Of a stretch of 64,000 nucleotides of DNA, positions 1,186 through 63,125 are shown piece after piece. Below the pieces are notes generated by a model that saw only the letters and a list, made by a program, of their open reading frames with translations, had not been told where the DNA came from and did no database searches. The position numbers and the translations under genes were made by a program. This DNA comes from Chaetoderma sp. LZ-2023a. Taxonomy: Eukaryota > Mollusca > Caudofoveata > Chaetodermatida > Chaetodermatidae. Each line of letters starts with the position of its first letter. The first letter of the stretch is position 1. The stretch spans positions 135,828,635 through 135,892,634 of the forward strand of contig CM067374.1 in assembly GCA_034401795.1 (NCBI GenBank), read 5' to 3'.

Positions 1186-1655
1186 ACAACGCCTCTGTTT
1201 CACGCGCAAATTTAGTACTGACCAATCACACTCGAACAGGAACGAGCAACCAAATAAAGAGGTCGCCTGGTTAAAGGTCAACGGTCAATGTCAAAGCTGT
1301 CGTAGTCGTGACAAAGGCTTTCTGTATGTACCGGTTTAATGGATGTCATGCATCATAAGTAATTAGTAATACTTGCATTCTTGCAACCCAATATATGCAC
1401 TAATACGACTGGTATACTCAAAGGTACACCATTATGCATATACCAATTTATATAGTTTCCTATTCATAAAATAGATTAGTAAAGGCTATTTGACCCACGA
1501 CACAAAATCTACCCGTCTATAAATACAGCGTTTCACTGGTCCTGATGGCAGTTTATCCTAAATATATTTTATTTGATATTTTGGAATTAATATTAATTCC
1601 AAGTTAGTTGCAAAATATCCAATAAATGTATTTAGTACAATAAATAGTATCTTTC

Positions 1656-2552
1656 ATGTACCAAAAGATTAAAGATAGACAAGTATTCTCTAATGCTGTA
1701 AAGCAGGTGCCCTCTGATTCTAAAATATCGCATGTCATTCCTGTTACAGGATTCGTGATGCCCCTAACGGCAGCTGAGAAGCAGAGGAGATATCGCGAAA
1801 AGTTAAATACTGATCCAAAAAGGAGGGAGAAATATCTTAGAAAGATGCGCATGCGGTATGAAGAGCGAAAGCAATGTGGTAAAGAACGCTTAGTTAGTAG
1901 TCTATCAGACAGAGATAAGAGAAATCAAAGGAAGGAATGGCAACGTTTTCGCAAAGCCAAAAAAGACATGTCTATGTCATCATATCAAAGTCCGCCAGAA
2001 ACACCAGATAATGGAAGCATATCTCGTGATCCCGAGCAAAGTGCGTCTGGACTTTCAAATGCACGTGCTTCCTCTTCAGCAAAGGCAAAAGGACAACAGA
2101 AAAGTAGGCGAAAGCATAGTAAAGTATATCGGCAACTCAAAAGTGTAGAACAGAGGTTGAGAAATACTCAGAAAGAATGTGACCGCTATAAGAAACGCTT
2201 TTATAGACTCATAATAAAACTTAATGGGGACACGCCTCTGACACCGAAATCTAAAACAAAACAACAACTTAAGGGTTGCAAGGTCAACCCACACGTTAAA
2301 AAATCACTATTGTTTGGTCATGTATTAGCCACAGAACTGCGAAACAGATATAAAAACAACTCAAACATTAAGCAAAAATGTGCTCTTTCGTGTTTGATTT
2401 CAGGCAAAGTACTAAAGAAGTACAAACTACTAAAACATGCCACGAAGACATTCGGGTTTTCTCAGAGACTATGCAGAGCAAATTTATTACGTCTTAATAA
2501 TATCACAGATGTTCCAGTAACTCAGAGACTAGGCTTCACGGCGAAACCATAA
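1656..2552 (+). pseudogene. Transposase segment 1 (basic N-terminal region)
   Basis: An open segment of 298 codons. An internal Met at about residue 36 starts a highly basic block (motif AAEKQRRYREKLNTDPKRR) seen at the start of many transposase-like proteins of this family. It is followed by Ser/Pro-rich linkers and another Lys/Arg-rich helical stretch (~residues 150-190), probably DNA-contacting. The frame ends in a stop at 2550-2552, but homologous-looking coding continues in the +2 frame from about 2530, so a frameshift lies near 2500-2550. The true start is not certain: the ATG at 1656 or the one at 1758. Confidence 0.7.
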
Positions 2553-3658
2553 ACCTAATCAAACACTTTTTCACTAGAGATGATATCAGCAGACAGACCA
2601 CTGGAAAACGTGATACAATAACGCGGTGTAAAGTAAAAAAACAAAAACGCTTTTTGTGTGGCGATATAAAACACATTCATCAACAGTACAATCGTGACTT
2701 TCCTGAAAATAGTGTGAGTTACCCAACATTTCTGCGATTGCGGCCTTTCTGGGTAGTTTCACCTACTCTGAAGGATCGTGACACGTGTATGTGTAAGCTG
2801 CATGAAAATATTAGTCTGAAGATAATGAAGCTCAAACAGCTAAACATTCTTCCCAGGGGAACTCACATAGATAGCCTACTCAGCAGTTATTGCTGTGATT
2901 TTAGCAGTGATAAGTGCATGTTAGGCGATTGGGACCAATGCAGAAATATGTGCATAGCCAGTCAGGAATTCAATCCCACTACGAAAATCGAATGGCTAGA
3001 ATGGCAGACTCAAACTAACACAGTAGATAAGGAGTCAGAAACTATTCAATTTAGAAAAACTGTGAAATGCAAACGAGCTGGAACAATTAAAGAACTTTTC
3101 GATTTGTTCAACAGTGACATGAAAGCAAAGATATGTCCCCATATCTACAGAATGCGTCATCAATATCAACAAAGTCGCCAGTGTAAAGCAGAATTGACAA
3201 ATCGAGATGCAATTATTCACATAGACTTTGCAGAAAACTATGTATGCAGGTATGCAACGGAAATTCAATCTGTTCACTTCGGTGCTAGTCATAGACAGGC
3301 AACATTGCATACAGGCATGCTTTATACAAAAGATGCTTCACTTCCCTTTTGTACCATATCTGACTCCATGCTACACAACGCTTCCGCTGTTTGGTCCTAC
3401 ATTTCACCCGTTCTAATGATGATAAGGAATGACTTTCCAGATGTAGACACACTGCACATATCCAGCGACGGCCCAACGACACAGTATAAGAATAAGGACA
3501 ATCTGTATTTACTATCAACTGAGCCACAAGATCGGTTTCAGGCAAGCAACATGGAACTTCTCAGAAGCATCGCATGGCAAGGGCGCGCCCGATGGTGTTG
3601 GGGCAGTATTAAAGCGAACTGCAGACAACGCGGTTGCACAGGGCAAGGATATTCCTGA
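2553..3658 (+). pseudogene. Transposase segment 2 (DDE catalytic region)
   Basis: Continues segment 1 in another frame; its first Met is at 2654 but the frame is open upstream. It holds Cys-rich stretches (CMCKLHENI, YCCDFSSDKC) and two acidic motifs typical of an RNase H-like DDE core: IHIDFAENY (about 3217-3243) and ISSDGPTTQYKN (about 3459-3494). The reading frame then drifts into sequence unlike the family. The conserved SEASHGKGAPDG motif with the expected third acidic residue sits in a different frame at about 3564-3600. The second frameshift therefore lies near 3525-3540, between the second D and the E, and separates the catalytic triad. Confidence 0.75.
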
Positions 3659-4316
3659 TGCGACAACCATGTATAATGAACTTTCAAATATTACATCTGT
3701 TAAACTTTTCTTCATCGCAGAGAGTGAAATTAATACTAAGTGTATTCCTGCAAAACTTGCACCAATCCGTGGAACAATGAAAATGCATCAAGTTATAACA
3801 AAAGAAGAACGTGTAATTTGCTATAGAGGTTTATCTTGTTTTTGTTCCAGAAATGGCTGTTCATGTTTCAACGCTAAGCATTACACATTTCCTTCTGAGC
3901 AACTTTCTGCTGTAATACCAACAGTAGACAATTCTTCGGGCAGTGCAGAAAGCACAGTTGGAGCTGAAGCACTCATCGCAGATCCACCCAACCTTCCCGA
4001 TAACTTAACTGTAACATCCTCAGCATCATGTAGTAACCAGCCAAAAATGTCAACTTTGTTGAAGAAACGAATTACAATTAAAAAGGCTATAATCCGCAAA
4101 CCACGTGCTAAGCAAACCATTTGTAATCCTATTAATAAGAAGAAGGTATCAAAACTCTTAAAAGATCAACTGTATAACTGTTTAGTTTGTAACGAGCCTT
4201 ACAATGACCCACCTACAGGGGATTGGATCGAGTGCCATAGCTGTAATTTATGGGCACATGAGCTGTGCACGTCGTATGGTGGAGTTAATCTATACACATG
4301 TGACAAATGCAGTTAA
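3537..4316 (+). pseudogene. Transposase segment 3 with C-terminal PHD finger
   Basis: This frame carries the glutamate motif SEASHGKGAPDG, then a basic stretch, a Cys-rich motif (CYRGLSCFCSRNGCSCF), a Ser-rich linker and a C-terminal zinc finger at about 4175-4313. The finger has CLVC, ECHSC, WAHELC and YTCDKC in the C4HC3 order of a PHD finger, with the usual Trp before the His. PHD fingers often read histone H3 tails, so the domain might guide target choice; that role is an inference. The ORF ends with TAA at 4314-4316. Confidence 0.75.
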
Positions 4317-7119: not shown

Positions 7120-8199
7120 TCAGCCCCATTCTGTTGGATCCATATCTCCAGCATCTCCTCTCCAAACTTGAATTTGGTAGTACACGCGAAGACTGTGAAA
7201 CTTTGCGGATGCGGGTGTTGGTGGTAAATCTCGTGCTTCAACATACTTGGAACTTTTTGCAACCTTCTCCCTGAATCGCTTGTACCGCAAAGCAACTAGA
7301 CTATCCATTGAAGTGCCATTGTATAGAATAAGCATTGCCTTCTCACCTGCTTTTATCACGTCATCTTTATTCGCATTACTCATTGTAAACACTTCAGCAA
7401 TTTGAGAGAGTTCTTTGCAGCACTGGATTTTGCTAAGGGATGCAGATTTTCCAATTCCATAAAGCCTAGATGTTGAGTCACAGCCAAGGATAGCATGGAT
7501 AAATAACAGCTGTGAGCACAAACAGAACCCGAGTTTTTCCTTTGCCATTTTGATATTCCACAGTCGGGGTTTCTTTGCATTTTGCTTTGGCTCTGGTCTG
7601 AAAAGTAGCTGACAGCCATTCATATCAGTATGGTATAGAAGCAAAACCAGTAGGTCGGTATCGTCTCCAACAAGAGCAGTATTTGTTGACTTTGAAGCCA
7701 AGATAGCCGTGTGCGTAATTAAGACATCAGCATCACCGCTTGCCTTTATCGTTAAGCATCCAGCCTGTTCGAGAGATGAACTTAAGATTGATATGAACCG
7801 ATGTTTGTTCTGCTTGTTACTAAGAAAATCAGGCTTACTCAGAGTTACAACTGTTTGCGGAGTCAGTACAACAGTTGCGCCTGATCCACGAGTTCGCCTC
7901 TTATGTGTTACATCTTTTATCTCTGGGCCTTGGTCATAACCATCAAAAACTACTGTAGCCTTTCGATATTTGCTTATGCAATATTTTACATATCTTTGAC
8001 AAACATTTGCAAATGTCTCTCCACGCTGCCATGGAACACGGTGTAATAGAGCTCCTCCATCAAGCACATAGTGGACAGAATCTGGAAGGACTGCATCTTC
8101 ATTTTGAATTAATTTCCACAATGCATCAGCAAGTGCCGGCTTATTTGCTTCCCATGGAAGAGATGAATTATCAAAGAGTGCGGGCGGATGAGTGCACAA
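7120..8199 (-). pseudogene. XPG/FEN-like nuclease segment of the Academ-like gene
   Basis: A segment of 359 codons. Motifs in order: VVFDGYDQ (~83-90), SGDADVLI (~154-161), ALVGDDTDLLVLL (~175-187) and HAILGCDSTSRLYGIGK (~235-251). The acidic clusters and the GCD...GIGK helix-turn-like motif match the catalytic aspartates and H3TH region of the XPG/FEN1 family. The frame is shifted relative to the upstream segment near 8205-8215 and is ended early by TGA at 7120-7122. All nuclease motifs seem intact, so the decay looks recent. Confidence 0.75.
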
Positions 8200-8206
8200 C
8201 TCATAC

Positions 8207-9901
8207 TCAAAATAAGATGTTATTTGGCTCTAGATCTATCATCGGAAGGAAAATAACAGACGATTTACCTGGATAAACTCCTTGGTGAACAGTTTGCATC
8301 ATGCCAGACCGTGACTGTCTCCTTGAACGCAGAAACAAAGAGAAATCCGAGAGGATGTCAATGTCAGCTGTTGGGTCTGTTTGTTCCATTGCAGTTAACT
8401 CCTTAAAGGTCAATGGGAAGTTCCTGGTATGCTGAGACTCAAAGTTCCTGATACAGATCTTGCCAACTTGCTTGATATCTTCAGATGTTACATTTATCCT
8501 TGGAATAAGTTTGCACGAAAGGTTTCCTGGTGTAACAGATGCAATGATTCCCATTCCATGAAATGTATTATGCCCATCTATTGTGCAAATATTGTGATCC
8601 ACATTGTCGGCAACAAACTGAATGAACTCGCCTGATAATGGCTGTGGTAGATCTCCACCATGAAGTGATGCACTGCGCTCAAACCTCTGTATCTCCGCGT
8701 ATGAACATCCAAATCCGTGCTTGTACAAGGTGTCAACAATAAATCTAGATCCAAATTTATGGTGCATCTCACATGACAGCCCGAACTGCAAAGGTGCCAA
8801 AATAACTCTAGGACTAGTTCCTTGCATAATAGCCTGTCCAACTGATGCCTGTTTCATTTCTGTGTCTTTTCTAGTAAACAAAATCCGCAATAATTCCCGC
8901 AGTGTCTCTGGTAAATAATTCAATGCCTTTACTGGGTCGCTCATTTGCTCCCTTGATGGATAGCTTTCAGATGATGTGCATGAATCAATTAACTTAATAT
9001 CGTGTCTAAGCAGTTTGGCAGCTGTCTGGATGATTAGCATGCTCTCTGATTTGGAATCCTTTCTCTTCTGTTCCTTAGAGAAGTCAGTCAAAATAGTAGA
9101 TGCTTTAGAACGAAAGGTAACAACGTTTGGCTTACCATTCACAGTGCTAATAAATATTTCATCGCCATAATTATCTTTTATTTTATCCTGCATGTATTTT
9201 GTACTGTATGCTTTATTCTCTTTATCATCGAGATACTCTTGCATTTTATTAACGAGGTCGTGCAGGGTCAGCTGCTCATCATCATTATTTTCAAGAAATG
9301 CCATTGTCGCACTAAATGCTCTTACTCTGTCCAAGTCTTCTGGCCTTCCATGTTTTTGGGATGAGCAAGATGAGTGCAGCTGAGGGATATTTTTCATGGT
9401 TCGAAAATTTACGCTGCAGCTTTGATGGTATACTGCATTGACAACGCATAAATCCGGCGTGAAGGCAAGCCGCCCAGCTACACGTTTGCCCCATTCGTCT
9501 TTTCTCTGCTCACAGGCCTCGGCGATACTACATTGAAAGTCATGAGTACTTACTGGATAAATATCATAGCCACGTTTCTTTCCATCTTGAATTTTTGCAG
9601 GGTATCCGCATAGCAAACAATGTTCACTAAAATTGAATGTTGGACTTTCTGAACGGAGTGTTCGCATGGATGGCGGAGATTGTTCAATTTTCTCTGCGTC
9701 ACGGGCAATCCGCTTGGGATCAATGAACTCCCGTCGACATTTTACATGAACCCTCTGTCCTACTTCAGCTATGACATCGCTTTCACGGGCTCTGCTAGCA
9801 TTGTTAATACCGTCACAGCCTTTAACTCGAAGCTTAACAGTTTGTGAGCCATTTTCTAGGCTCTGGTTACAAATAACGCATGTATCTAAATCCATGTCCA
9901 T
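8207..9901 (-). pseudogene. N-terminal segment of the Academ-like gene
   Basis: 564 codons from ATG 9901. Starts with a zinc-binding arrangement CVICN ... KGCDGIN ... VHVKCRREF, then a second set HCLLCGYPAK ... HDFQCSIAEAC ... YHQSC. Further on is VADNVDHNICTIDGHNTFHG, a motif shared by many copies of this invertebrate mobile gene and possibly part of its catalytic core. The frame closes at 8207 just after LEPNN, whereas sensible coding (SYFEYELCTHPP) continues in the next frame. One indel in the TCTTATTTTGAG run near 8210 would explain it. Confidence 0.75.
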
Positions 9902-10221
9902 ATTCTGATTGAATTGTATAGAAATTTATTCAAATTGTGAGATAAAAGTGAAAATTAAAATGCAATTTATTTTAGATAAAATTTTAAAAGCGAAAAACAA
10001 AATTAAACTTACTTTAAATATAATTTTTTTAAATTACCGCGGCCCTGTGCATACAACCATATTTAATCTGTGGTTTGGAGAATTTGTACAAGTGGTTCAA
10101 GGCAATATTGCCAATTGCTTACTGTCTTCCGTGACCATGAAATTCAGAGCTTAGACAACATTTCTACTTCGTTTATTTGCGGAATGAAGCAGGTAAGGGA
10201 AGTTTCATTATTCGGATAATG

Positions 10222-11734: not shown

Positions 11735-12470
11735 CAACATCACCTATCGCTATCAAAAATAAATTGAAAGCGCTCAACCTGGATAAATGCAATGGCCCGG
11801 ATGAGAACAAGTGGACATAATAAATGAAGCTGTTGAGGCCTCTTGTGTCAACTTAAACCCTTAATGGTCAAGTTGGTAAAAAAATCGACCTCTGAAGTTA
11901 TCTTGAGAAATATCCATTTGCAGGCTAAAAGAATATTTTTTTTAATTTTACTACCGCAATGACTGGCTCGGTACCCGTGGTAAATTGTCAAAAATACTCT
12001 TCTACTACCGCAATGACTGGCTCGGTACCCGTGGTAAATTGTCAAAAATACTCTTCTTGGTCTGCACTGGCTAATCAGAAGTTTGAATTTTCTTGACCAA
12101 TTACACTTTTTATGAATGTCCACATGAAGGATAACAGAAATGTATTTTTGTAAATATTCGTTATAAATTTACAAAAAAAATACTTTTTTGGCTGCAAAAA
12201 TCAAAATTTTCTTGGAAAGTATTGGCAATGAAATGGTTAATTGAAATAAATAGTATTTTGAGCAGTTTAATGCGCTGTTGACACAAGAGGGGTTAAAGAA
12301 ATCAATGCGGCATTGTTTTACAATTCTCTAGACGAAAGCGTTATTATCTGACATCTGGAAATTGACAAATGCATGCTCTATACAAAAAAGCTCTAAACTA
12401 GTCCAAGCGACTATAATCCAATCAGTCTTACATGTACCTTGTGCAACGTTATAGAGTAATTTATAATGAA
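11735..12470 (+). pseudogene. CR1/L2-like reverse transcriptase relic split by a MITE
   Basis: Before the MITE the + strand encodes IKNKLKALNLDKCNGPDE, the N-terminal RT motif (KxPGPDE type). After it the reading resumes with LFYNSLDE, SDIWKLTNACSI and SDYNPISLTCTLCNVIE, the next conserved RT blocks. All lie in degraded frames with stops. The 452 bp MITE-2 at 11839-12290 sits exactly between the two halves, so it inserted into an existing LINE. Confidence 0.65.
11839..12290. repeat. MITE-2 copy with terminal repeats, inside a LINE relic
   Basis: Ends are CCTCTTGTGTCAAC (11839-11852) and GTTGACACAAGAGG (12277-12290), a perfect 14 bp inverted repeat. The body has the ACTGGCTCGGTACC-type segment common to this family and a 54 bp perfect tandem duplication (11951-12057). 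No coding capacity is evident. Confidence 0.75.
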
Positions 12471-12635
12471 CGGCAACGAAAATATATGGAAACTGGTCTT
12501 CGGAATTCGCATAAAAATGTGTATTCGAATATTCACGAACGAATCACCGAACTATTCAAATGTTTCCGACTAACATAGCCATGAATAACCATAAGAAGTT
12601 TCTGGGCGAAAGGTAATGCCTATGATTCCAGATCT

Positions 12636-15600
12636 TCATCCTCTACATGTGTATTTACAGCTATTGTCATGGTATGCCTGGAAGTATCTGATCGGGGCGT
12701 CATATTTATAGACAATTTCTTGATATTTCCACTGTCTGTCTGGACGCTTTTCAACGGTCTTCAAAGTAGATGCATTCACATCCTCTGGCTGGCAGACTAT
12801 TTCAGGGCTCAGTTGCTCGAATGGTGAAGCTGTTCTGTCGCAATCTAGTCTTCGCTCTCCTCTTGAATACCTTCAAGCTATGGCTTTGTGTGACAGACTC
12901 CGTAAGTGGTATCTCTAGGCTGGTTTCTATGTTGAGTATTTTTAGTATTTCCACCATTCCTCTCCGCAATCTTCGCTAGGCTAATGTAGGGAGCGTCAGT
13001 ATTTCAACCTCTCCGCAATCTTCGCTAGGCTAATGTAGGGAGCGTCAGTATTTCCACCTCTCCGCAATCTTCGCTAGGCTAATGTAGGGAGCGTCAGTAT
13101 TTCCACCTCTCCGCAATCTTCGCTATGCTAATGTAGGGAGCGTCAGTATTTCCACCTCTCCGCAATCTTCGCTAGGCTAATGTAGGGAGCGTCAGTATTT
13201 CCACCTCTCCGCAATCTTCGCTAGGCTAATGTAGGGAGCGTCAGTATTTCCACCATTCCTCTCCGCAATCTTCGCTAGGCTAATGTAGGGAGCGTCAGTA
13301 TTTCCACCATTCCTCTCCGCAATCTTCGCTAGGCTAATGTAGGGAGCGTCAGTATTTCCACCATTCCTCTCCGCAATCTTCGCTAGGCTAATGTAGGGAG
13401 CGTCAGTATTTCCACCATTCCTCTCCGCAATCTTCGCTAGGCTAATGTAGGGAGCGTCAGTATTTCCACCATTCCTCTCCGCAATCTTCGCTAGGCTAAT
13501 GTAGGGAGCGTCAGTATTTCCACCATTCCTCTCCGCAATCTTCGCTAGGCTAATGTAGGGAGCGTCAGTATTTCCACCATTCCTCTCCGCAATCTTCGCT
13601 AGGCTAATGTAGGGAGCGTCAGTATTTCCACCATTCCTCTCCGCAATCTTCGCTAGGCTAATGTAGGGAGCGTCAGTATTTCCACCATTCCTCTCCGCAA
13701 TCTTCGCTAAGCTAATGTAGGGAGCGTCAGTATTTCCACCATTCCTCTCCGCAATCTTCGCTAGGCTAATGTAGGGAGCGTCAGTATTTCCACCATTCCT
13801 CTCCGCAATCTTCGCTAGGCTAATGTAGGGAGCGTCAGTATTTCCACCATTCGTCTCCGCAATCTTCGCTAGGCTAATGTAGGGAGCGTCAGTATTTCCA
13901 CCATTCCTCTCCGCAATCTTCGCTAGGCTAATGTAGGGAGCGTCAGTATTTCCACCATTCCTCTCCGCAATCTTCGCTAGGCTAATGTAGGGAGCGTCAG
14001 TATTTCCACCATTCGTCTCCGCAATCTTCGCTAGGCTAATGTAGGGAGCGTCAGTATTTCCACCATTCCTCTCCGCAATCTTCGCTAGGCTAATGTAGGG
14101 AGCGTCAGTATTTCCACCATTCCTCTCCACAATCTTCGCTAGGCTAATGTAGGGAGCGTCAGTATTTCCACCATTCCTCTCCGCAATCTTCGCTAGGCTA
14201 ATGTAGGGAGCGTCAGTATTTCCACCATTCCTCTCCGCAATCTTCGCTAGGCTAATGTAGGGAGCGTCAGTATTTCCACCATTCGTCCCCGCAATCTTCG
14301 CTAGGCTAATGTAGGGAGCGTCAGTATTTCCACCATTCCTCTCCGCAATCTTCGCTAGGCTAATGTAGGGAGCGTCAGTATTTCCACCATTCGTCTCCGC
14401 AATCTTCGCTAGGCTAATGTAGGGAGCGTCAGTATTTCCACCATTCCTCTCCGCAATCTTCGCTAGGCTAATGTAGGGAGCGTCAGTATTTCCACCATTC
14501 CTCTCCGCAATCTTCGCTAGGCTAATGTAGGGAGCGTCAGTATTTCCACCATTCGTCTCCGCAATCTTCGCTAGGCTAATGTAGGGAGCGTCAGTATTTC
14601 CACCATTCCTCTCCGCAATCTTCGCTAGGCTAATGTAGGGAGCGTCAGTATTTCCACCATTCCTCTCCGCAATGTTCGCTAGGCTAATGTAGAGAGCGTC
14701 AGTATTTCCACCATTCGTCTCCGCAATCTTCGCTAGGCTAATGTAGGGAGCGTCAGTATTTCCACCATTCGTCTCCGCAATCCTCGCTAGGCTAATGTAG
14801 GGAGCGTCAGTATTTCCACCATTCCTCTCCGCAATCTTCGCTAGGCTAATGTAGGGAGCGTCAGTATTTCCACCTCTCCGCAATCTTCGCTAGGCTAATG
14901 TAGGGAGCATCAGTATTTGCACCATTCCTCTCCGCAATCTTCGCTAGGCTAATGTAGGGAGCGTCAGTATTTCCACCATTCCTCTCCGCAATCTTCGCTA
15001 GGCTAATGTAGGGAGCGTCAGTATTTCCACCATTCCTCTCCGCAATCTTCGCTAGGCTAATGTAGGGAGCGTCAGTATTTCCACCATTCCTCTCCGCAAT
15101 CTTCGCTAGGCTAATGTAGGGAGCGTCAGTATTTCCACCATTCCTCTCCGCAATCTTCGCTAGGCTAATGTAGGGAGCGTCAGTATTTCCACCATTCCTC
15201 TCCGCAATCTTCGCTAGGCTAATGTAGGGAGCGTCAGTATTTCCACCATTCGTCTCCGCAATCTTCGCTAGGCTAATGTAGGGAGCGTCAGTATTTCCAC
15301 CATTCCTCTCCGCAATCTTCGCTAGGCTAATGTAGGGAGCGTCAGTATTTCCACCATTCCTCTCCGCAATCTTCGCTAGGCTAATGTAGGGAGCGTCAGT
15401 ATTTCCACCATTCCTCTCCGCAATCTTCGCTAGGCTAATGTAGGGAGCGTCAGTATTTCCACCTCTCCGCAATCTTCGCTAGGCTAATGTAGGGAGCGTC
15501 AGTATTTCCACCATTCGTCTCCGCAATCTTCGCTAGGCTAATGTAGGGAGCGTCAGTATTTCCACCATTCGTCTCCGCAATCTTCGCTAGGCTAATGTAG

Positions 15601-16735
15601 GGAGCGTCAATATTTCCACCATTCCTCTCCGCAATCTTCGCTAGGCTAATGTAGGGAGCGTCAGTATTTCCACCATTCCTCTCCGCAATCTTCGCTAGGC
15701 TAATGTAGGGAGCGTCAGTATTTCCACCATTCCTCTCCGCAATCTTCGCTAGGCTAATGTAGGGAGCGTCAGTATTTCCACCTCTCCGCAATCTTCGCTA
15801 GGCTAATGTAGGGAGCGTCAGTATTTGCAGTCGCTCTTCTTATCATAGGTCTTTAACGCCTGGAACCAGTTTTTTTGCTCTTCTCTAAAGTAGTTACATC
15901 GTTTTTGCGGAGCGGATTCCAGACAGAATTTACATACTCTAAATGAGGTCTAACATGTACCTTGTACAGCCATCTGAATGTGTCTTCGTTAATAAATGTG
16001 AATGGCATTTGGACATCCCCATTTAATTATGTTTCTTTATTCTCCCTTTCGTTTAAATGGTCTTCAAATGAGAATTTGCTGTCAATGTTGACTCCGAAGT
16101 CTTTGAGTTGTTCGCTATTACTCTCTGTCTCCGCCTGAGCAGGAATGCCTTTGTCCACTTGTGTACTCTCTCAGTTATGCCGAATCCGCTAAGCTTTTTC
16201 AGGCGCCTTGTGTGCGGTACTCTAAATAGATCACATGAATATTATCTCCGTCATCAAGGTTATCAGTCCATTTCTTCGTCCTGAGGTTTTAGTAGCTGCA
16301 GTGTCGTCGATCTCCGTGCAATGAACTCACACTGTATGTCGCTAAATAAGTGGTTTCTCTTCATGTGGTCTCTGACCATTGTTTCTAGCTGCTTATATAA
16401 GACGCATTTTAGGTTTACTGTTCTGTAGTTGCTTGCCAATTTTCTGGACCCCTTCCTGAAAATTGCTGTTATTTTAGCTGTTTTCCATTCTTCTGGAATC
16501 TTTCCGCAGTCCAATGATGTATTAAAGATTTTCCAGTGATTTGCTCAAGACGTCTGTCATCTCTTTCAGCACTCTAGGATGGACTTCGTCTGGCCTCGGT
16601 GACGTGTCTATTTTCAGCTTCTTGAATTTCTTAGCCACCACGTCCATGGTTACATGGATACTCTCGAGCGGTTGATCATAGTCCTGTGTTGATACTTCAG
16701 GGCCTCTGCTTAATACTGCTTGATAGAAATTAAAT
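12636..16735 (-). pseudogene. CR1/L2-like LINE ORF2 relic carrying a giant minisatellite
   Basis: On the minus strand, starting near 16735, conserved RT blocks appear in order: VVAKKFKKLKIDTSPRPDEV, GKIPEEWKTAKITAIF, NYRTVNLKCVLYKQLE (16514-16263), then NSEQLKDFGVNIDSKFSFED (~16070) and VRPHLEYVNSVWNPL (~15910). The array at 12945-15826 follows. Coding-like sequence resumes beyond it with GMVEILKIL, HSLKVFKRRAKTRLRQNSFT and WNSLPA-type motifs, ending in TGA at 12636-12638. Frameshifts and stops are frequent. Clade naming rests on motif style and is tentative. Confidence 0.8.
12945..15826. repeat. 54 bp minisatellite, about 53-54 units, derived from LINE coding sequence
   Basis: Near-identical 54 bp units with about nine 49 bp variants that lack five bases (ATTCC on the + strand). 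The 49 bp units cluster at the left end (about 12.96-13.24 kb) and occur singly near 14870, 15465 and 15780. On the minus strand one frame reads the 18-residue repeat GGNTDAPYISLAKIAERN. The ancestral LINE frame reads ILTLPTLA*RRLRRGMVE, a mutated form of the conserved LPTLKYRRLRGDIIE motif that is intact in another LINE tail at ~62800. An E-to-T variant recurs often every third unit (162 bp), giving partial higher-order structure. Confidence 0.95.
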
Positions 16736-17691
16736 CTCGGCGGTGAATGTGTAAAACTGGGAATGTTTTGTTGGGAACACTACGATTGACACATTGACAC
16801 CATAGGGTCGGATGAGTGTTAGACACTTACCAAGTTTTTAGTGATTCAATTAAAAGCTGTACGAAAACACACAGTTTAAATATTGCTATCATATATTTCC
16901 TATGGAAAACACCTTGGGTAAAGAAAAAGAGATTTCTCGGAAACCATTGGAAGATCCATTATAAAATTGATACCTAATCAAGTAAATATAGCACCTAGAA
17001 GTTGTTCAAGTTTCCAGGCGATCTGAGGAAGAAAAGATCGATTCCAACACAGGCAAATTGTGTGTGGAGCTTATCTAGAGATGGGCGTGGCATAAAGCTG
17101 GATTCATCCATTAGTGGATTTCTGTTTGGGCACTAACATGTGCCATACAGTATGTTCTAATATTACCAGTGCTGATAAAGGGGAATTCATTTCTGCTAAA
17201 ATTGAAACCTTGTAACCCTGCTTACTGGGCTGATGCTGGCCCGATATCGGGCCAATACTGAACGTATCGGCCTGGTATCGGCCCAGTAAGCTGCGTTATC
17301 TGGGACGCTTGATATCATACAGGGTGGCCTTGACACTAAGAGATGACCTTTACCATTTAAACCGAAAGTCAACCTTCTTCATTGGGATACAAAAAAATCT
17401 ATGGTCGTCCTCAAAGGAATAACATTGACCCTACAGGGGTGACCTTGGTGTTAACGGGTGCTATCGGATCACTTCTAATATATCCAATGAACCTTTCAGG
17501 TCAATGAGAGCTTGTTACTGGCAAAAACTTTGACCCTAAAGGGTAACCTTGACCTTTTGTTCCAAAATCAACAGACATCTTCTGGAGCCAAGGGAACCAC
17601 CCATCAAACGCATAGTGGTGATCGCATAACGACTTGTAGGTATAGCATCTATACAGCAGATTCCCATACATTCCCTGGATATCGAGAAAAA
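16736..17691. other. No gene; one compact palindrome
   Basis: Apart from the nested palindrome at 17220-17291 and phrases such as GACCTTGACC...TTGACCCTA repeated loosely between 17330 and 17560, no feature is supported. Confidence 0.5.
17220..17291. repeat. Nested palindrome, GGCCCGATATCGGGCC
   Basis: Outer arms GCTTACTGGGC (17220-17230) and GCCCAGTAAGC (17281-17291) pair perfectly. Inside is the perfect 16 bp palindrome GGCCCGATATCGGGCC (17238-17253). It resembles a very short foldback element. Confidence 0.75.
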
Positions 17692-23936: not shown

Positions 23937-25070
23937 TATACTGACGACCCTCTCGTAGTAAAACTGTCAGCAGAACAGAAAGCGTTACGTCTGCGCATCT
24001 ATCAAAGTGGCCAAAGTGAAGATCGCACCAAACTACGCCAGGAACGCAATAACATTCTGCACAAAAATTAGCGAACGCTTAAAAGATCTTGCTATCCAAC
24101 AAGCAGATGCCCTAGCAGATGAAATCACTGCCACGGATGACTGCCACAACATGTTTCGGACAGCCCGAGCCCTGAGAGTTGCTGACTACACACCACCACT
24201 AACTGTACACAACTCTGAAGGACACTATCGGGACTGACCATGGCAAAGATGAGGCAATTCGAGAATGGTTCAAGGAACAGTTCACTGACCACGATGATGA
24301 GCCCTTGCACCCATTCTCAGGAGACCACAGGTCATTACTAACACCAATTAACACAGCAGAGGTTGAGAAGGCACTTAAACCCCGGAAAAATGGACGTGCA
24401 TCTGGACCTGATGGCATAAGCAATGAACTATTCAAATATGCAAGTGACATTCTGTGCCGCATCTGAGACACGATCAATGACTTCACCGGATCATGTCAAA
24501 GTGGCTTCAAACGTAGACGCAGCTGCGCAGACAGTGTATGGGCTCAACGCATGCTTGTGTCAGTAGCCATGTCCAAACACTGGGATTTCTACAAAATGGG
24601 CATTGACATGTCACGAGCCTTCGACACAATTAAATGCTCAAAGATCCTAGACGTACTACGCCAGGCCAGTTGCAATGAAGATGAGCTACGACTAGTGAGA
24701 CTACTGCTTGCAGACACCAATCTGAGAGTACGAGTCAAGTCATTGAAGTCTGTAGAGTTTGAGACATCAATCGGCTCCCCACAGGTTGATGGTCTATCCC
24801 CTGTGCTCTTCACCTGTTACCTGGCTGCTGCATTGAAATCCGTGCGGGGGAACTCCACAAGACCAAACCCCGCCCCCACCCCACCCCCAACCCCGTTGTC
24901 AATACTGGGCATGCCGCTAGAGATGGAATATGTCGACGATGTGGACTTTATAGACCAGGAAAAGAAACCTCTTGACGAACTTATCCCAATAGCTGCATGC
25001 AAACTAAAAATTGAGAATCTCTTTATGAATGAACCCAAAACAGAGTTCACCCACACATGGTGTCGTAAAC
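23937..25070 (+). pseudogene. Non-LTR reverse transcriptase fragment
   Basis: From about 23937 degraded frames give KLSAEQKALRLRIYQS and LAIQQADALADEI. From 24551 an open segment of 226 codons holds RT core motifs: GIDMSRAFDTIKCSKILDVL (palm, FD), SIGSPQVDGLSPVLFT (a form of GxPQGDxLSP with Gly changed to Val) and MEYVDDVDFI (YxDD). Endonuclease and C-terminal parts are missing or scrambled. Catalytic aspartates are visible but the Gly-to-Val change and frameshifts argue for a dead copy. The 3' side is joined to the repeat shared with 11165-11392. Confidence 0.75.
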
Positions 25071-25275
25071 AAAAGTGTATATTGCGTTTAGTTTTTCAGC
25101 AATTATGGCACATGCTATTGGCTTATGCTACTGGACTCGTGGTAATTCCACCCAATTCCTGTTTTTGCTTAACATCTTTACATCATTTGCTTAAAGGTGT
25201 GTCCTATGTTATGTCGCGAGAGGTACTATAACATCTCTGAAGAATTAGCCCTTCTGACAGTACAATCACCTTTGA
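25065..25275. repeat. Dispersed repeat, direct copy of 11165-11392
   Basis: See the partner at 11165-11392: same blocks, same order, about 80% identity by eye. Confidence 0.7.
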
Positions 25276-39790: not shown

Positions 39791-40923
39791 CTATTCCATT
39801 TTTACCCCCAAAGGCTCGTCAATACGCCCTTTCCAGGAACCAACCCAAAAGCCTTCTGACTTCGAGTGGTTAATTTTCGCGTTGAAAGTAGACTCATATA
39901 CATGTATCAAATCTCGCAATTTAATAAAATCATCATTACATGTACACAAGGCAGTTATGTCATCAACATAAGCTGAGCAAGAAACCCTTTCACCCGAGAT
40001 ATCAGGCAGGGCCACCTCCCCCCCACCCCCTCAGTCCGTTATTTGAGCGCATCTTAACTAACAATGGTTCGATACAGATACTGTACAAAGCGCCTGATAG
40101 GGAGCAACCCTGTCTGATACCACGGCTAAAAGAAACAGGCATAGATAACAAATTATTTATTTTCAGTAAACACGAAGTGTCATTGTAAAGAAGCTGAATG
40201 CATTTAACAAAAAAAATCACCAAAGCCAAATGCGCGCAAGGTATTCAATAAATACTGGTGACTTACCCTATCAAACGCCTTCTCCTGATCTAGGGATACA
40301 ACGCCAAGAGGTAACGACATGAAATTTGAATACTCGACGATGTCTGTTATCAACCTAATGTTATTGGAGATCTTACGTCCTGGTACACAATAGCTTTGGT
40401 CTATGTGAATAATTTCTGCGAGTACTGTACGTATATGATTATACAAGGCCTTGGAAAGTATTTTCAAATCTACACATAAAAGTGATACAGGTCTCCAGTT
40501 CTTTAAATTGGTTAAATCACCTTTCTTAGGTAATAATGTCACAACCGCTCGCCTGCATGAAGTAGGTAATAACATGTCTTCAATTGATTCATTAAAAACA
40601 TCAAGAAGATCAGAACCGATAGTTTCCCAAAAGGTTTTGCAAAGTTCCGATGGTAGTCCATCAATTCCAGGAGCTGTGTTGTTATTGAGATGGTTAACAG
40701 CGTCAGTAAGCTCTGGTAAACTCAGGGCCCGATCTAACTCAATTCTGGAAAGCTCACTTAGATTAGGAAGACCTGATAAAAGCAGGTTTTCAGACAATTT
40801 GCATGAGCTTGACTTCGCATATAATTCACCATAGAAATCAGAGGCGTGGATCAGAATATCCGTATCAGAATTAACCATTTCACCGGTTGGGATCTTCAAC
40901 TGTGAAATAGTTTTATTCATCAC
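39791..40923 (-). pseudogene. Tx1 ORF2, reverse transcriptase region
   Basis: 40923-40204 contains LNNNTAPGIDGLPSELCKTF, TLLPKKGDLTNLKNWRPVSL and GVVSLDQEKAFDRVSHQYLL, the early RT blocks with the first catalytic Asp. After a shift, 40229-40002 has SFSRGIRQGCSLSGALYSIC and 40015-39791 has CSAYVDDITAL, the YxDD active site. All key residues seem present; only the frame is broken. Confidence 0.85.
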
Positions 40924-41193
40924 ACGTTTATTCTCAAGATTAAAAAAATATGTAGTAGGTCTATCTGATTCATTTATATGCTGGAATCGCGATCGAATCC
41001 AAGCACCCCTATTTTGCTCTTTGAGGAGAGTTGTTAATTCAGATTGCTTTTGGTTAATTACCTCTAATAATTCATTTGTTTTTGGAATTTTGACCGATAA
41101 CTGATCAATTTCAGCTTGTAAGTCTGATCGTCGCTCACGGAAAAGGACAGCTCGTTCTCGGGAATAACGCTGTGATAAAATACATATATGCTT

Positions 41194-51765: not shown

Positions 51766-54700
51766 TTAGAATGTTTCTAGGAAACTATTCTTAGCTAATG
51801 CACGAGGTGACGATCCACTGGAAAGATAGACAACGTCTGGACCAATTATTGCGTAACTTTGACTGACAGCAACCGGACACAGGTTTGCTTGTACCCTTTT
51901 TAATACCTTCTGCGCGGCAAGATGTCGTCTGTTGATATCCATCTGCATAATTCTGGGCGTATCGATCTGACCAGCGGCTCTCTTGTTCGCGTCGTCAGAG
52001 TTCCACATTTTTGGCGGCATTTTCCCACAGATTGCAGCCCTGTTGCCGACAAGTGTTATGGGCAGATTCATTGAGATAATTTTCTCCTCCACAATTGCCC
52101 CCGAGGTGAGCATTTGCCGACGTTGTCGACGCTGGAGGTCCATCAACCGCCGGCTGGTTATGTGGTTAGGAAGTTCACGTAGTACCGGATGGATAAACTG
52201 AATGCCGGTTTGTAAGAATATTTCATTAAACATGACCCAGAGCTTTTGATAAACACCCTTCTCTTCCGTCTCACAGCTTTGAAAGACGTAGTGCAGCTCG
52301 CACATCTTGTGCCGCAATCTGTCGTCTAGTTTAACCAGAACATCGTGCAACTTATCACGAGAGCTCTCCTCTATGTCGCTTTCTTCATCATGTAACATAT
52401 CCACGATTCTCTCTCTCATTTTCTCTCCTCGCTTCAAGTATATATACTGCATGGCCAATGTCCTTAGTCGCTTCAAAGGGACGTCAGCAGCTTGCACCAA
52501 CAAGTCTTTTACCAGGTTATACTGCCTGCTCGATAACTTATCCTTCTCGAAGTGATGCTTCAACAACATGTAGTTTTTACGACGGTCTGTGCATCCTAAC
52601 TTGAGGTTGAAGCTGCGATTCTTGACTGCTTCCTCTTCGGGTTTCGCTGATTCCTCCAATTCAGTATGTATTTGCTTAACCATAAGATCATCTGTCTCCT
52701 GTTGCTTCTGAGTGATCATGCCCTCAAAATCGAACTGTAATATGTCCATCTCTTTTGTCAGCTTTGAGTACATCTTCCAGACTAGCTGATAACGAGACAT
52801 CAATGCCAGATACTTGCCATCTTTCGTCCGCATCATCTTCTCTTGGAACTCGGTCACATTCGATGAGGGCGAATCACTCTCATCACCAGGTCGTGTGGTG
52901 TCAAGCTTACCTCGCATCTCTTTCAGTTTACTCGCCATCTCTTTGGCCTGCTTCTTGTTTCTATCCATCACATTCATTGTCTGCTGCATATCACTGACAA
53001 CCTTCTGATTTTCCTTTATTTCCGGGTTCTTCCCTTGAACATGAAGAATGAGAAATGCCTGAGCAACAATGGTTTCTAGTTTGTGCAAATACTCTATCAC
53101 ATCACCGCCCATCGAGCTGAGTATGTGTCGTACGTCTGGAGCTAAATGAGTACTTGCTAGATTTTTGATTAGTTCTGATTCTGTTGCCAGGGCTTTCAAA
53201 TTTTGATTGTCCAACAGAGAGACAAGTTTCCCCTTGAAGTGATCAATTGAACGAAATATGCGTACACTTTCACGATATATACTTTGCATTTGACCCAGAT
53301 GTTGTATTTCTAATTTGCGACCTCCCGCATCATTCCTCTGTTTCTCTCGCTTCAAATGTGCCTTCAGTCTCTCCACCTCAGCCTTAAACTCCTTCTTCAT
53401 TCCGTGAATCATTGTTTTGTAGTAACCATCTGTTGCTATTTCTGCATCACCAGCAACGGAAATCTTTGATGCAACTGTCAGTGTCTGCAATGCTCGACCA
53501 GCCATTTCTAATGCCTTGACTTTCTCACATTCAGCTTTCAGTGCAGTTTCTAAAGTTTCAATTTGTTTTTTCTGTTTGGTATTTGACGACTTCATTTCAA
53601 TGACTTCAGCCTTAAGGCGCATAACTGCTGCTGCTGCTTCGGTTTCACCCGCTCTGGATGCCGTTCTACTACGTGGCGTCGTTGATGTTTGTCTTGGAGT
53701 TTGTATGGAATTTTTAGATTCTAAATTCTGCTCGAGATCATCAACCTTGACCTGTAGCTTGCTTGTTTCTTGTTGCAGTGATACAATGCGACCTTCAGAG
53801 AGTTTTATTTCTTGATCTTTGCGCTTTGCCTGCAAATCAACTTCTTTAAGGCGGTCAGACATTTCTTTCACTTTCGCCTGCTTTGCATCGCTTTGTTCAG
53901 CCTTTCCAGCTATCGTGGCCTTCGCCTCGCTGAGCTCAAACCCAAATTTTGTGATAGTCTGTCTATATTCGATACACTCAGCATTAAGTTTGTCTCGCAT
54001 CAACTTTGCAACATCTAGTCTCCGCCCCACGTCTTCAAGTGCAGACTTGTTCTGACCAGCCTCTTTCAATCGTGTATTGACTGCGCTATTGAAATGTTTA
54101 AACTGCCGCATTCCATTCCTAATTGCAAGCTTATATGGAGCCGCTTTCGTCCACCTGATCGCCTCTTCGAATACAGACAATATGGTATTCGCTGCAAACT
54201 CCCATTTATCTCTGTGTGTGAGAAGTGCATTATCTTCGTAAACTATTACTTTATCTGGTAGTTTTTTGTTTTTAGATTTATTAACGCCAAGATTCGGTTT
54301 GGCTTGCATTCCCCATTCATCAACTAGTTTCACGCCAATGAATAGAAGCACTTTTAATCGCGCCTCAAACGTCTCTAGCATTTGGACTGTACTAAGATAG
54401 ATACTATCTTCGACTTGCAAGTATCCGTATAGGTCAGGGTCTCCGATCAGGAGCTTCCCAATACCCCAGTCTTCTCTCAGCCATTCGTCTACATCAAACA
54501 GCAACGAAAAACGATCCTGAGCATTCTCTAAGAATTGTTCCAAAGTTCTGCTTACCTCACGCCGCTGTAACAGAGTCTCTTTTGCTTTTTCTATAAAAGT
54601 AGGTGATGTTACTAGTTGCTGTCTGCTGACGCCACTGCTTTGGACATCAGACGGTTCGTACTGATACTCCACACCAGCCGATTGTAAAGTCCTGCCTATT

Positions 54701-55182
54701 CGTTCGTGGATAGCGTTTATGGCATCTTTTAGCTCTTGCTGAACACGATCTTTCTTATTCTTAGACAGTTTTTGAATTACGGAAAACACATTTCGTGGTA
54801 AAATGTTTGCCCAATCTGCTTGGTACATCGCTTCCATGTCACGAATTGTCCTTCTCCTGCCACCGCGCTCACTAATTTCAAGTCCTGATTTACCAGAGTG
54901 CGTAGGCTTCGACATGTTCCCCCAGGCGCGCGGTTGGCTGCTAGGCCGTGAAGGTGGCTTAGTGGCATTTTGGCGCATCTCCACCTTACCGGCAACATAA
55001 TTATCGTCAGGACTTTTAGCAAATCTGACAGACTTCTTGTTTCTTTGTCTTGGCTTCAACGCCGAACTTTGCGTGTTGTTGTTATTTTGCGAGCTCTTAG
55101 TAAATGTTTTCCCCTCCGTTGACGCCCGGCCTCTTTTCCTTTCACTAGTCTTGGAACGTGCCATTATAAATGTCCTGTTCAC
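51766..55182 (-). CDS. Large single-exon coiled-coil protein, possibly FAM186-like
   Basis: An intact frame of 1138 codons. Met at 55182 or 55164 (MARSKTSERKRGRAS); the second looks the better start. Residues 1-115 are basic and disordered, with KSVRF at 50-54, an RVxF-type PP1-docking match. 118-175 is helical (ADWANILPRNVFSVIQKLSK), 205-400 further helices. Coiled coil is strong at about 400-500 and 530-640 and again at about 745-880, split by a Thr/Ser-Pro-rich hinge (IQTPRQTSTTPRSRTASRAG, ~500-520). The helical N-terminal order resembles what I recall of FAM186, but that is uncertain; no enzyme motif is seen. It has no signal peptide or membrane segment. It is probably a cytoskeletal or ciliary protein. 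It lies inside the presumed intron between the exons at 57878 and 35321. Confidence 0.85.
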   Translation of the reverse strand: MNRTFIMARSKTSERKRGRASTEGKTFTKSSQNNNNTQSSALKPRQRNKKSVRFAKSPDDNYVAGKVEMRQNATKPPSRPSSQPRAWGNMSKPTHSGKSGLEISERGGRRRTIRDMEAMYQADWANILPRNVFSVIQKLSKNKKDRVQQELKDAINAIHERIGRTLQSAGVEYQYEPSDVQSSGVSRQQLVTSPTFIEKAKETLLQRREVSRTLEQFLENAQDRFSLLFDVDEWLREDWGIGKLLIGDPDLYGYLQVEDSIYLSTVQMLETFEARLKVLLFIGVKLVDEWGMQAKPNLGVNKSKNKKLPDKVIVYEDNALLTHRDKWEFAANTILSVFEEAIRWTKAAPYKLAIRNGMRQFKHFNSAVNTRLKEAGQNKSALEDVGRRLDVAKLMRDKLNAECIEYRQTITKFGFELSEAKATIAGKAEQSDAKQAKVKEMSDRLKEVDLQAKRKDQEIKLSEGRIVSLQQETSKLQVKVDDLEQNLESKNSIQTPRQTSTTPRSRTASRAGETEAAAAVMRLKAEVIEMKSSNTKQKKQIETLETALKAECEKVKALEMAGRALQTLTVASKISVAGDAEIATDGYYKTMIHGMKKEFKAEVERLKAHLKREKQRNDAGGRKLEIQHLGQMQSIYRESVRIFRSIDHFKGKLVSLLDNQNLKALATESELIKNLASTHLAPDVRHILSSMGGDVIEYLHKLETIVAQAFLILHVQGKNPEIKENQKVVSDMQQTMNVMDRNKKQAKEMASKLKEMRGKLDTTRPGDESDSPSSNVTEFQEKMMRTKDGKYLALMSRYQLVWKMYSKLTKEMDILQFDFEGMITQKQQETDDLMVKQIHTELEESAKPEEEAVKNRSFNLKLGCTDRRKNYMLLKHHFEKDKLSSRQYNLVKDLLVQAADVPLKRLRTLAMQYIYLKRGEKMRERIVDMLHDEESDIEESSRDKLHDVLVKLDDRLRHKMCELHYVFQSCETEEKGVYQKLWVMFNEIFLQTGIQFIHPVLRELPNHITSRRLMDLQRRQRRQMLTSGAIVEEKIISMNLPITLVGNRAAICGKMPPKMWNSDDANKRAAGQIDTPRIMQMDINRRHLAAQKVLKRVQANLCPVAVSQSYAIIGPDVVYLSSGSSPRALAKNSFLETF

Positions 55183-55337
55183 CGCGGCAACTGATTAATT
55201 ATCATGACAGTTTTCTCATTCTAAGCAAGTTAAATTATTAGTATTACTTCCTCGCGTCATACAGCAATTATACACGCATTTATTTCTGCTTGGTTCTGAT
55301 AAAGATGTAGTTTACTTCTGATAAATTAGCTTATGAA

Positions 55338-62350: not shown

Positions 62351-62614
62351 ACCCTACCATGGTTTCAACACCGCCTTAAAACACGCAAAGTGCTACTAAT
62401 TTTTAATAACCGCATACTAAATATTAACTTTTTGTACTTCGTTAATGTCCATTTACAGATCAAGAGAAGGCCATTTTGTAAAATTATCACTGGAATTTAC
62501 GAAAAGAGCATTTTGATGTCATTCAACTGGATATTTCTCGTGATCACTGTAGATGATGTTTAGCCTGGCTCATTAAAACGAACATGAAAATCCTACTTTT
62601 ACTTGATAAGGGTC

Positions 62615-63125
62615 CATACGCCAAGCGAAAAATATTTTTACGGCACTTGTGAGATCTCAAGTTGAATATGCAGCGAGTGTGTGGTCACCATATAAGAAAA
62701 GTGGCATAGCTACTGTGGAAAAGGTTCGGAGAAGGGCCACAAAGTGTGTACCATCACTAAGAGAGTTGAGCTACACAGAGAGACTGAAGCGGCTACAACT
62801 ACCAACCCTAAAGTACAGACGGCTTCGAGGGGACATCATTGAAACATACAAGATAATAAATGGGATTTATGACAGACGCGTTACTGAAAATTTCTTCACA
62901 CACAACAATGCGGACACAAGAGGGCACAATTATAAAATTTATAAGAACCACAATAGACTTGGCATTAGGAAGTACTCATTCGAGAACCGTGTCATCGATA
63001 TATGGAATAATCTTCCTTACGATGTGGTAAACGCACCGAGCCTACATTGTTTTCAAGGTAGACTTGATCGGTACTGGAAAGATCAGGAAATGAAATATGA
63101 TTTCAATGCAGATTACAATTTCTAA
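62615..63125 (+). pseudogene. CR1/L2-like LINE ORF2 C-terminal part, open frame
   Basis: An open frame enters near 62620 with AKNIFTALVRSQVEYAASVW and runs to TAA at 63123-63125. It includes KVRRRATKCVPSLRELSYTE, LQLPTLKYRRLRGDIIETYK, NADTRGHNYKIYKNHNRLGI and VIDIWNNLPYDVVNAPSLHC. The copy is 5' truncated but its remaining frame is intact, so the insertion is fairly young. It gives the reference for the motif that seeded the 12.9-15.8 kb minisatellite. Confidence 0.85.

Follow-up and report, generated by a model that had tools for sequence, protein, structure and literature searches.

The array and the LINE copy that carries it

The window (the whole stretch of 64,000 nucleotides analysed here) contains a minisatellite array that lies on the minus strand inside a decayed copy of a LINE (Table 1). 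TRF detected a single array at positions 12944-15826, with a period of 54, 54.1 copies and 97% matches, and cutting it at the start of the repeat accounts for its full length (46x54 + 8x49 + 7 = 2883 bp). The units are arranged head to tail and, at 54 or 49 bp, fall within the range of about 10-100 bp by which minisatellites are recognised; in LINE orientation they begin AAATA(C/T)TGA(C/T)G. A preliminary description of this DNA had given each unit as 54 bp, which is correct for 46 of the 54 but not for the remaining eight, which lack five bases and in which the LINE frame is shifted. Two variants are common to several units, namely this 5-bp deletion (units 1, 7, 18 and 49-53) and a G-to-C change (10 units), and their scattered distribution is compatible with block copying or conversion. 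Private substitutions are few (11 in 54 units, or 2876 bp, each confined to one unit), and the mean difference among the 46 long units is 1.3%. Examination of the order of unit types at lags 1-12 gave nothing convincing in the way of a higher-order arrangement (lowest p 0.05, at lag 1, uncorrected). About 900 bp from the array, at 11949-12057, there is a perfect tandem duplication (54 bp x 2) of other sequence, whose equal period is perhaps due to chance.

The host LINE copy extends over about 12567-16718 according to blastn comparison with its relatives, and about 350 bp present in other copies are missing from it near 16104. When the 5' flank (15827-16760, minus strand) was searched against the 2.44-Gb assembly, other places matched it at 65-88% identity (40 of 142 first-look candidates scored), and the corresponding range for the 3' flank (12700-12944) was 67-89% (40 of 75 scored). 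LINE homology on either side thus bears out the earlier view that the array sits within a LINE copy, and the flanking protein sequence reads as had been claimed, with GVKDL, two stops and EERLQ before the array and EILKIL...LEIPLTESVT after it. A reverse transcriptase domain (RVT_1, E 5e-09) was recognised at 1476-2069 of the relative L075; this result belongs to that relative and not to the broken frames of the window copy. Two C-terminal LINE pieces of L075 gave no Pfam match at E 0.001. A motif of this family resembles that of CR1/L2-type LINEs, to which the family may belong, the clade name being that of the preliminary description. The related motif which had been pointed out near 62800 is indeed present in another LINE fragment of the window, but other copies in the genome are nearer in sequence to the array-bearing copy.

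Elsewhere in the window, RVT_1 matches mark two further reverse-transcriptase fragments, at 24467-25231 (plus strand) and 40204-41193 (minus strand). An open frame of 1142 aa at 51766-55194 (minus strand) has a Pfam match to FAM186A-B_C that lies below the cutoff (27.9 bits versus 37). Long open frames also occur nearby at 7120-9925 (minus strand) and 1644-4316 (plus strand), and no Pfam match at E 0.001 was obtained for the neighbouring ORFs 7120-8229, 8207-9925 and 2501-3658.

Table 1. Positions of the array, its host LINE copy and related features in the window
Feature	Position	Strand	Evidence
LINE-oriented minisatellite array of 54 units in all, 46 being 54 bp and 8 being 49 bp long, with a further 7 bp	12944..15826	-	TRF; unit cutting and variants
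Upstream (5') part of the LINE body, as far as homology was found	15827..16718	-	Genome search with 15827-16760; blastn against relatives
Downstream (3') part of the LINE body, as far as homology was found	12567..12943	-	Genome search with 12700-12944; blastn against relatives
First (5') copy of AAATACT, the 7-bp direct repeat bounding the unit; context CTGC-AAATACT-GACG	15820..15826	-	Sequence
Second (3') copy of AAATACT, with which the last partial unit begins; context GGTGG-AAATACT-AAAAATACTC	12944..12950	-	Sequence
Other LINE fragment outside the array, with the related motif LPTLKYRRLRGDIIETYKI	62610..63125	+	ORF list; no Pfam match at E 0.001

The repeat unit and its single-copy relatives

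Comparison of the unit with the consensus of ten single-copy relatives shows identity at 47 of 54 bases and a score of 40, whereas 1000 dinucleotide shuffles reached a mean of 9.7 (sd 1.6) and a maximum of 17; the likeness between unit and LINE is not a matter of chance. This consensus was drawn from the 15 single-copy rows described below, with C8b, C4, C12b, C17b and C11d excluded as gapped, short or duplicated nearby. The state of the segment was recorded in 18 family copies, namely the window copy, L021 and 16 copies hand-picked among the loci of the 5' and 3' flank searches (L074, whose match stops at the segment start, was left out). The segment is single in 15 of them, one copy (C13) has a 29-bp duplication, and two (the window copy and that on C1) have long arrays. 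Among the 15, the first ten or so bases of the segment lie outside the LINE match in C8a and C4, and part of the segment is deleted in C17b. Seven further loci with some tblastn match were not counted: L043 and L048 show a single segment in their tblastn rows, and L051, L066, L068, L070 and L071 match mainly outside it. Because 15 of the 18 copies hold the segment once and the other three carry tandem forms, a single copy is likely to be the ancestral state, with expansion in place, as the preliminary description had proposed. It had also looked to LINE copies devoid of the segment as the observation that would speak against this order of events, and no such copies appeared among the 18. The only match to a dimer of the unit outside the window array is a single copy on C17 (85% over 62 bp), in which the Tyr codon is intact. 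A protein search with a 105-residue query yielded 14286 first-look places, of which 150 were scored; the matches listed span at most 330 bp and none has a long internal insert, although such a search is weak on inserts in that a match could end at an array.

The tandem junction, searched with up to three mismatches through all of the 2.44-Gb assembly other than stretches reading N, has 54 matching places, comprising 53 junctions and the start of the array (the latter with three mismatches), and every one of them lies within the window array. Within this search, then, the array occupies one locus, unlike a multi-locus satellite, and no array devoid of LINE flanks was found, the other observation that had been named as contrary to an origin within the LINE. 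A unit homologous to a segment of a transposable element (TE), in an array that stands in place inside a copy of that TE, identifies it as a TE-derived minisatellite. The Tyr codon found in most relatives has become TAG in 54 of 54 units, as had been noted. It is likely that this change preceded the amplification, as also suggested earlier, but that order is not forced because homogenisation could have spread TAG among the units.

The unit is bounded by a 7-bp direct repeat (Table 1), which fits a start by slippage or unequal exchange. At the 3' place of this repeat, most relatives read AAATGTATAA, and the ten-relative consensus has AAATACTAAAG at the segment start and AAATGTATAAA just after the segment end, 54 bp apart. 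Only 6 of 11 sites agree between these two places, with AAAT as the exact match, and the source element therefore probably lacked the perfect 7-bp repeat; either conversion from the unit start or a set of separate small changes may have produced it. In the 3' partial unit the sequence is still AAATACTAAA, which is the unit start of the family, so that the two substitutions that turned CTAAAG into CTGACG at the start of the units seem to have spread after the first duplication.

Tandem duplications elsewhere in the LINE family and alternative explanations

Inside the source segment of the window array, the copy on C1 (L065, 769-1435) carries an array of 29 bp x 23 with 87% matches, so that the window array is not alone in having arisen within this family. 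On C13 (L061/L077) there is a 29 bp x 2 duplication whose junction is the same as that on C1, with 86% matches between its two units. With up to three mismatches, the 29-bp junction has 22 matches in the assembly, 21 on C1 and one on C13, and none elsewhere, and the two duplications may represent one event. No repeat bounds them, so that microhomology is unnecessary for such duplications in this LINE family. A survey of 35 hand-picked, non-overlapping loci with 34667 bp of LINE-like sequence revealed tandem duplications in other parts of the LINE as well, including 79 bp x 2 with a 100% match in L060 (C11, 1393-1550), and 64 bp x 2.1 at 95% in L041 (C9, 1779-1915); shorter duplications occur in L073, L038 and L040. 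In these loci and the window taken together (about 199 kb, selected for the presence of LINE copies), nine arrays have a period of at least 12 and at least four copies, including those of the window and C1 (a 22 bp x 43 array in L054 lies outside this set), and minisatellites are therefore common in this LINE-centred sample. Large arrays were also seen near other LINE copies in L054 (2-942, 22 bp), L063 (1-792, 43 bp), L060 (164-1158, 31 bp) and L072 (3276-4362, 20 bp). A gapped search for paired GACATGGTGG, tried as a hotspot test, was uninformative (274 pairs versus 1311 for the reversed control); among the matches listed, the C1 array is the only LINE array present.

The 54 bp x 54 array of the window, the 29 bp x 23 array on C1 and the 29 bp x 2 duplication on C13 all overlap in one stretch of 54 bp, and a common end can be drawn for them. 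The segment might be particularly prone to tandem duplication in this LINE family, a special hotspot whose 3' breakpoint at GGTGG would be shared. We consider this doubtful. Because the 54-bp unit can be cut at any point of its 7-bp repeat, the common end is one of eight placements, and further duplications occur elsewhere in the LINE; for these two reasons, the hotspot is only a suggestion. The possible single origin of the C1 and C13 duplications and the abundance of minisatellites around LINE copies also weigh against it, as do predicted DNA hairpins, which are no better than those of shuffles whether the 29-bp unit (z 0.69), the 54-bp unit (z 0.53) or a single-copy segment (z 0.19) is folded. 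Somewhat less probable still is that the segment has been a recurrent birthplace of minisatellites, in which case at least two arrays (the 54-bp array and the 29-bp array on C1), both of which can be drawn to GGTGG, would be independent and the sequence might set the breakpoint.

The 29-bp junction shared by C1 and C13 is compatible with a common source, and the window array could likewise have come from a LINE that was already duplicated when it spread by retrotransposition. We regard this as improbable, given that the 54-bp junction is present at no other locus within three mismatches (an older, more diverged junction could escape such a search) and that the C13 duplication, with its 86% between units, is old compared with the nearly identical units of the window. 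Insertion of a satellite from elsewhere into the LINE can be set aside with little hesitation: nothing found in the analysis supports it, the unit is homologous to exactly the segment that relatives carry between both flanks, and its junction was seen nowhere else in the assembly under the search conditions given above. Equally far-fetched is the retention of the array as coding sequence in a frame that stays open for long stretches and encodes a GNTDAPYISLAKIAERNG repeat (565 and 205 aa), since the frames in question (13192-14889 and 14861-15478, minus strand) differ from the LINE frame and are shifted by the 49-bp units, and a random frame of 18 codons is free of stops about four times in ten ((61/64)^18), so that one open frame of six is not unusual.

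Proposed history and comparison with known systems

There is strong confidence that the array is a 54-bp LINE segment that was tandemly amplified in place to 54 units after the LINE had inserted and decayed. According to this history, a LINE copy of an old family would have inserted at the locus and then decayed, and a segment of its formerly coding part behind the reverse-transcriptase domain, lying between the partly similar AAATACTAAAG and AAATGTATAAA, would have undergone a first tandem duplication, whether by slippage during replication or by unequal exchange, through misaligned pairing of the two similar places. The 3' place would have been converted to the unit-start sequence, with later changes of the unit start spreading across the array, and from two copies, more slippage, unequal exchange and gene conversion could have led to 54 units and kept them alike. 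Divergence from the consensus amounts to 7 of 72 aligned sites in the 5' LINE flank and 11 of 130 in the 3' flank, or about 9% (gaps and unaligned ends uncounted). Set against this divergence, the few private changes in the array suggest that today's units are young, or well homogenised, relative to the LINE insertion; strong homogenisation would make the apparent age of the array lower than its true age. To date the duplications, a tree was built from 18 LINE rows, leaving aside the C1 copy as too short; none of its 15 inner branches was supported, and it groups the window copy with no other. Most likely, the array is a by-product of DNA instability, with no evident function.

Ahmed and Liang (2012) attributed no fewer than 7,276 tandem repeats of the human genome, amounting to 23% of minisatellites and satellites, to TEs and noted that certain TE regions can be hotspots (PMC3389668). 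One of their minisatellites, an AluJo-derived array of 17 units each 52 bp long, resembles the window array in its birth inside a single TE copy and its growth in place. Direct repeats of 5-20 bp flank 300 of the 7,276, the majority being of 7 bp, which is also the length in the window array. Unlike it, the human cases described there involve another host and other TE families, and most of those left unexplained there consist of two units only, as opposed to 54 (PMC3389668). As summarised in the same source, the model of Haber and Louis holds that a minisatellite unit is bounded by a short direct repeat and starts by slippage, conversion or unequal crossing over (PMC3389668); the AAATACT at either end of the window unit agrees with this, but the consensus of the LINE family has an imperfect version of the bounding repeat. 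Satellites carrying LINE ORF2 sequence include chicken HinfI/SCR1 (from CR1) and Phodopus PROsat and Phoca Pvc 20 (both from LINE-1), and the unit of the window is likewise derived from a LINE; in contrast to these satellites as they are listed, it comes from one 54-bp segment, was found at one locus and still has its LINE flanks in place (PMC9659126). The passage from TE to minisatellite or satellite, LINE ORF2 included, is thus already published, and the window array is new only as a further case.

The parent segment, its single-copy relatives, a bounding repeat, changes common to all units and, in another copy with units of another length, a stage of two units are all visible in one genome. 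The value of the array lies not in a new type of system but in a clear record of the birth of a minisatellite, from which models of the origin of tandem repeats would gain a worked example.
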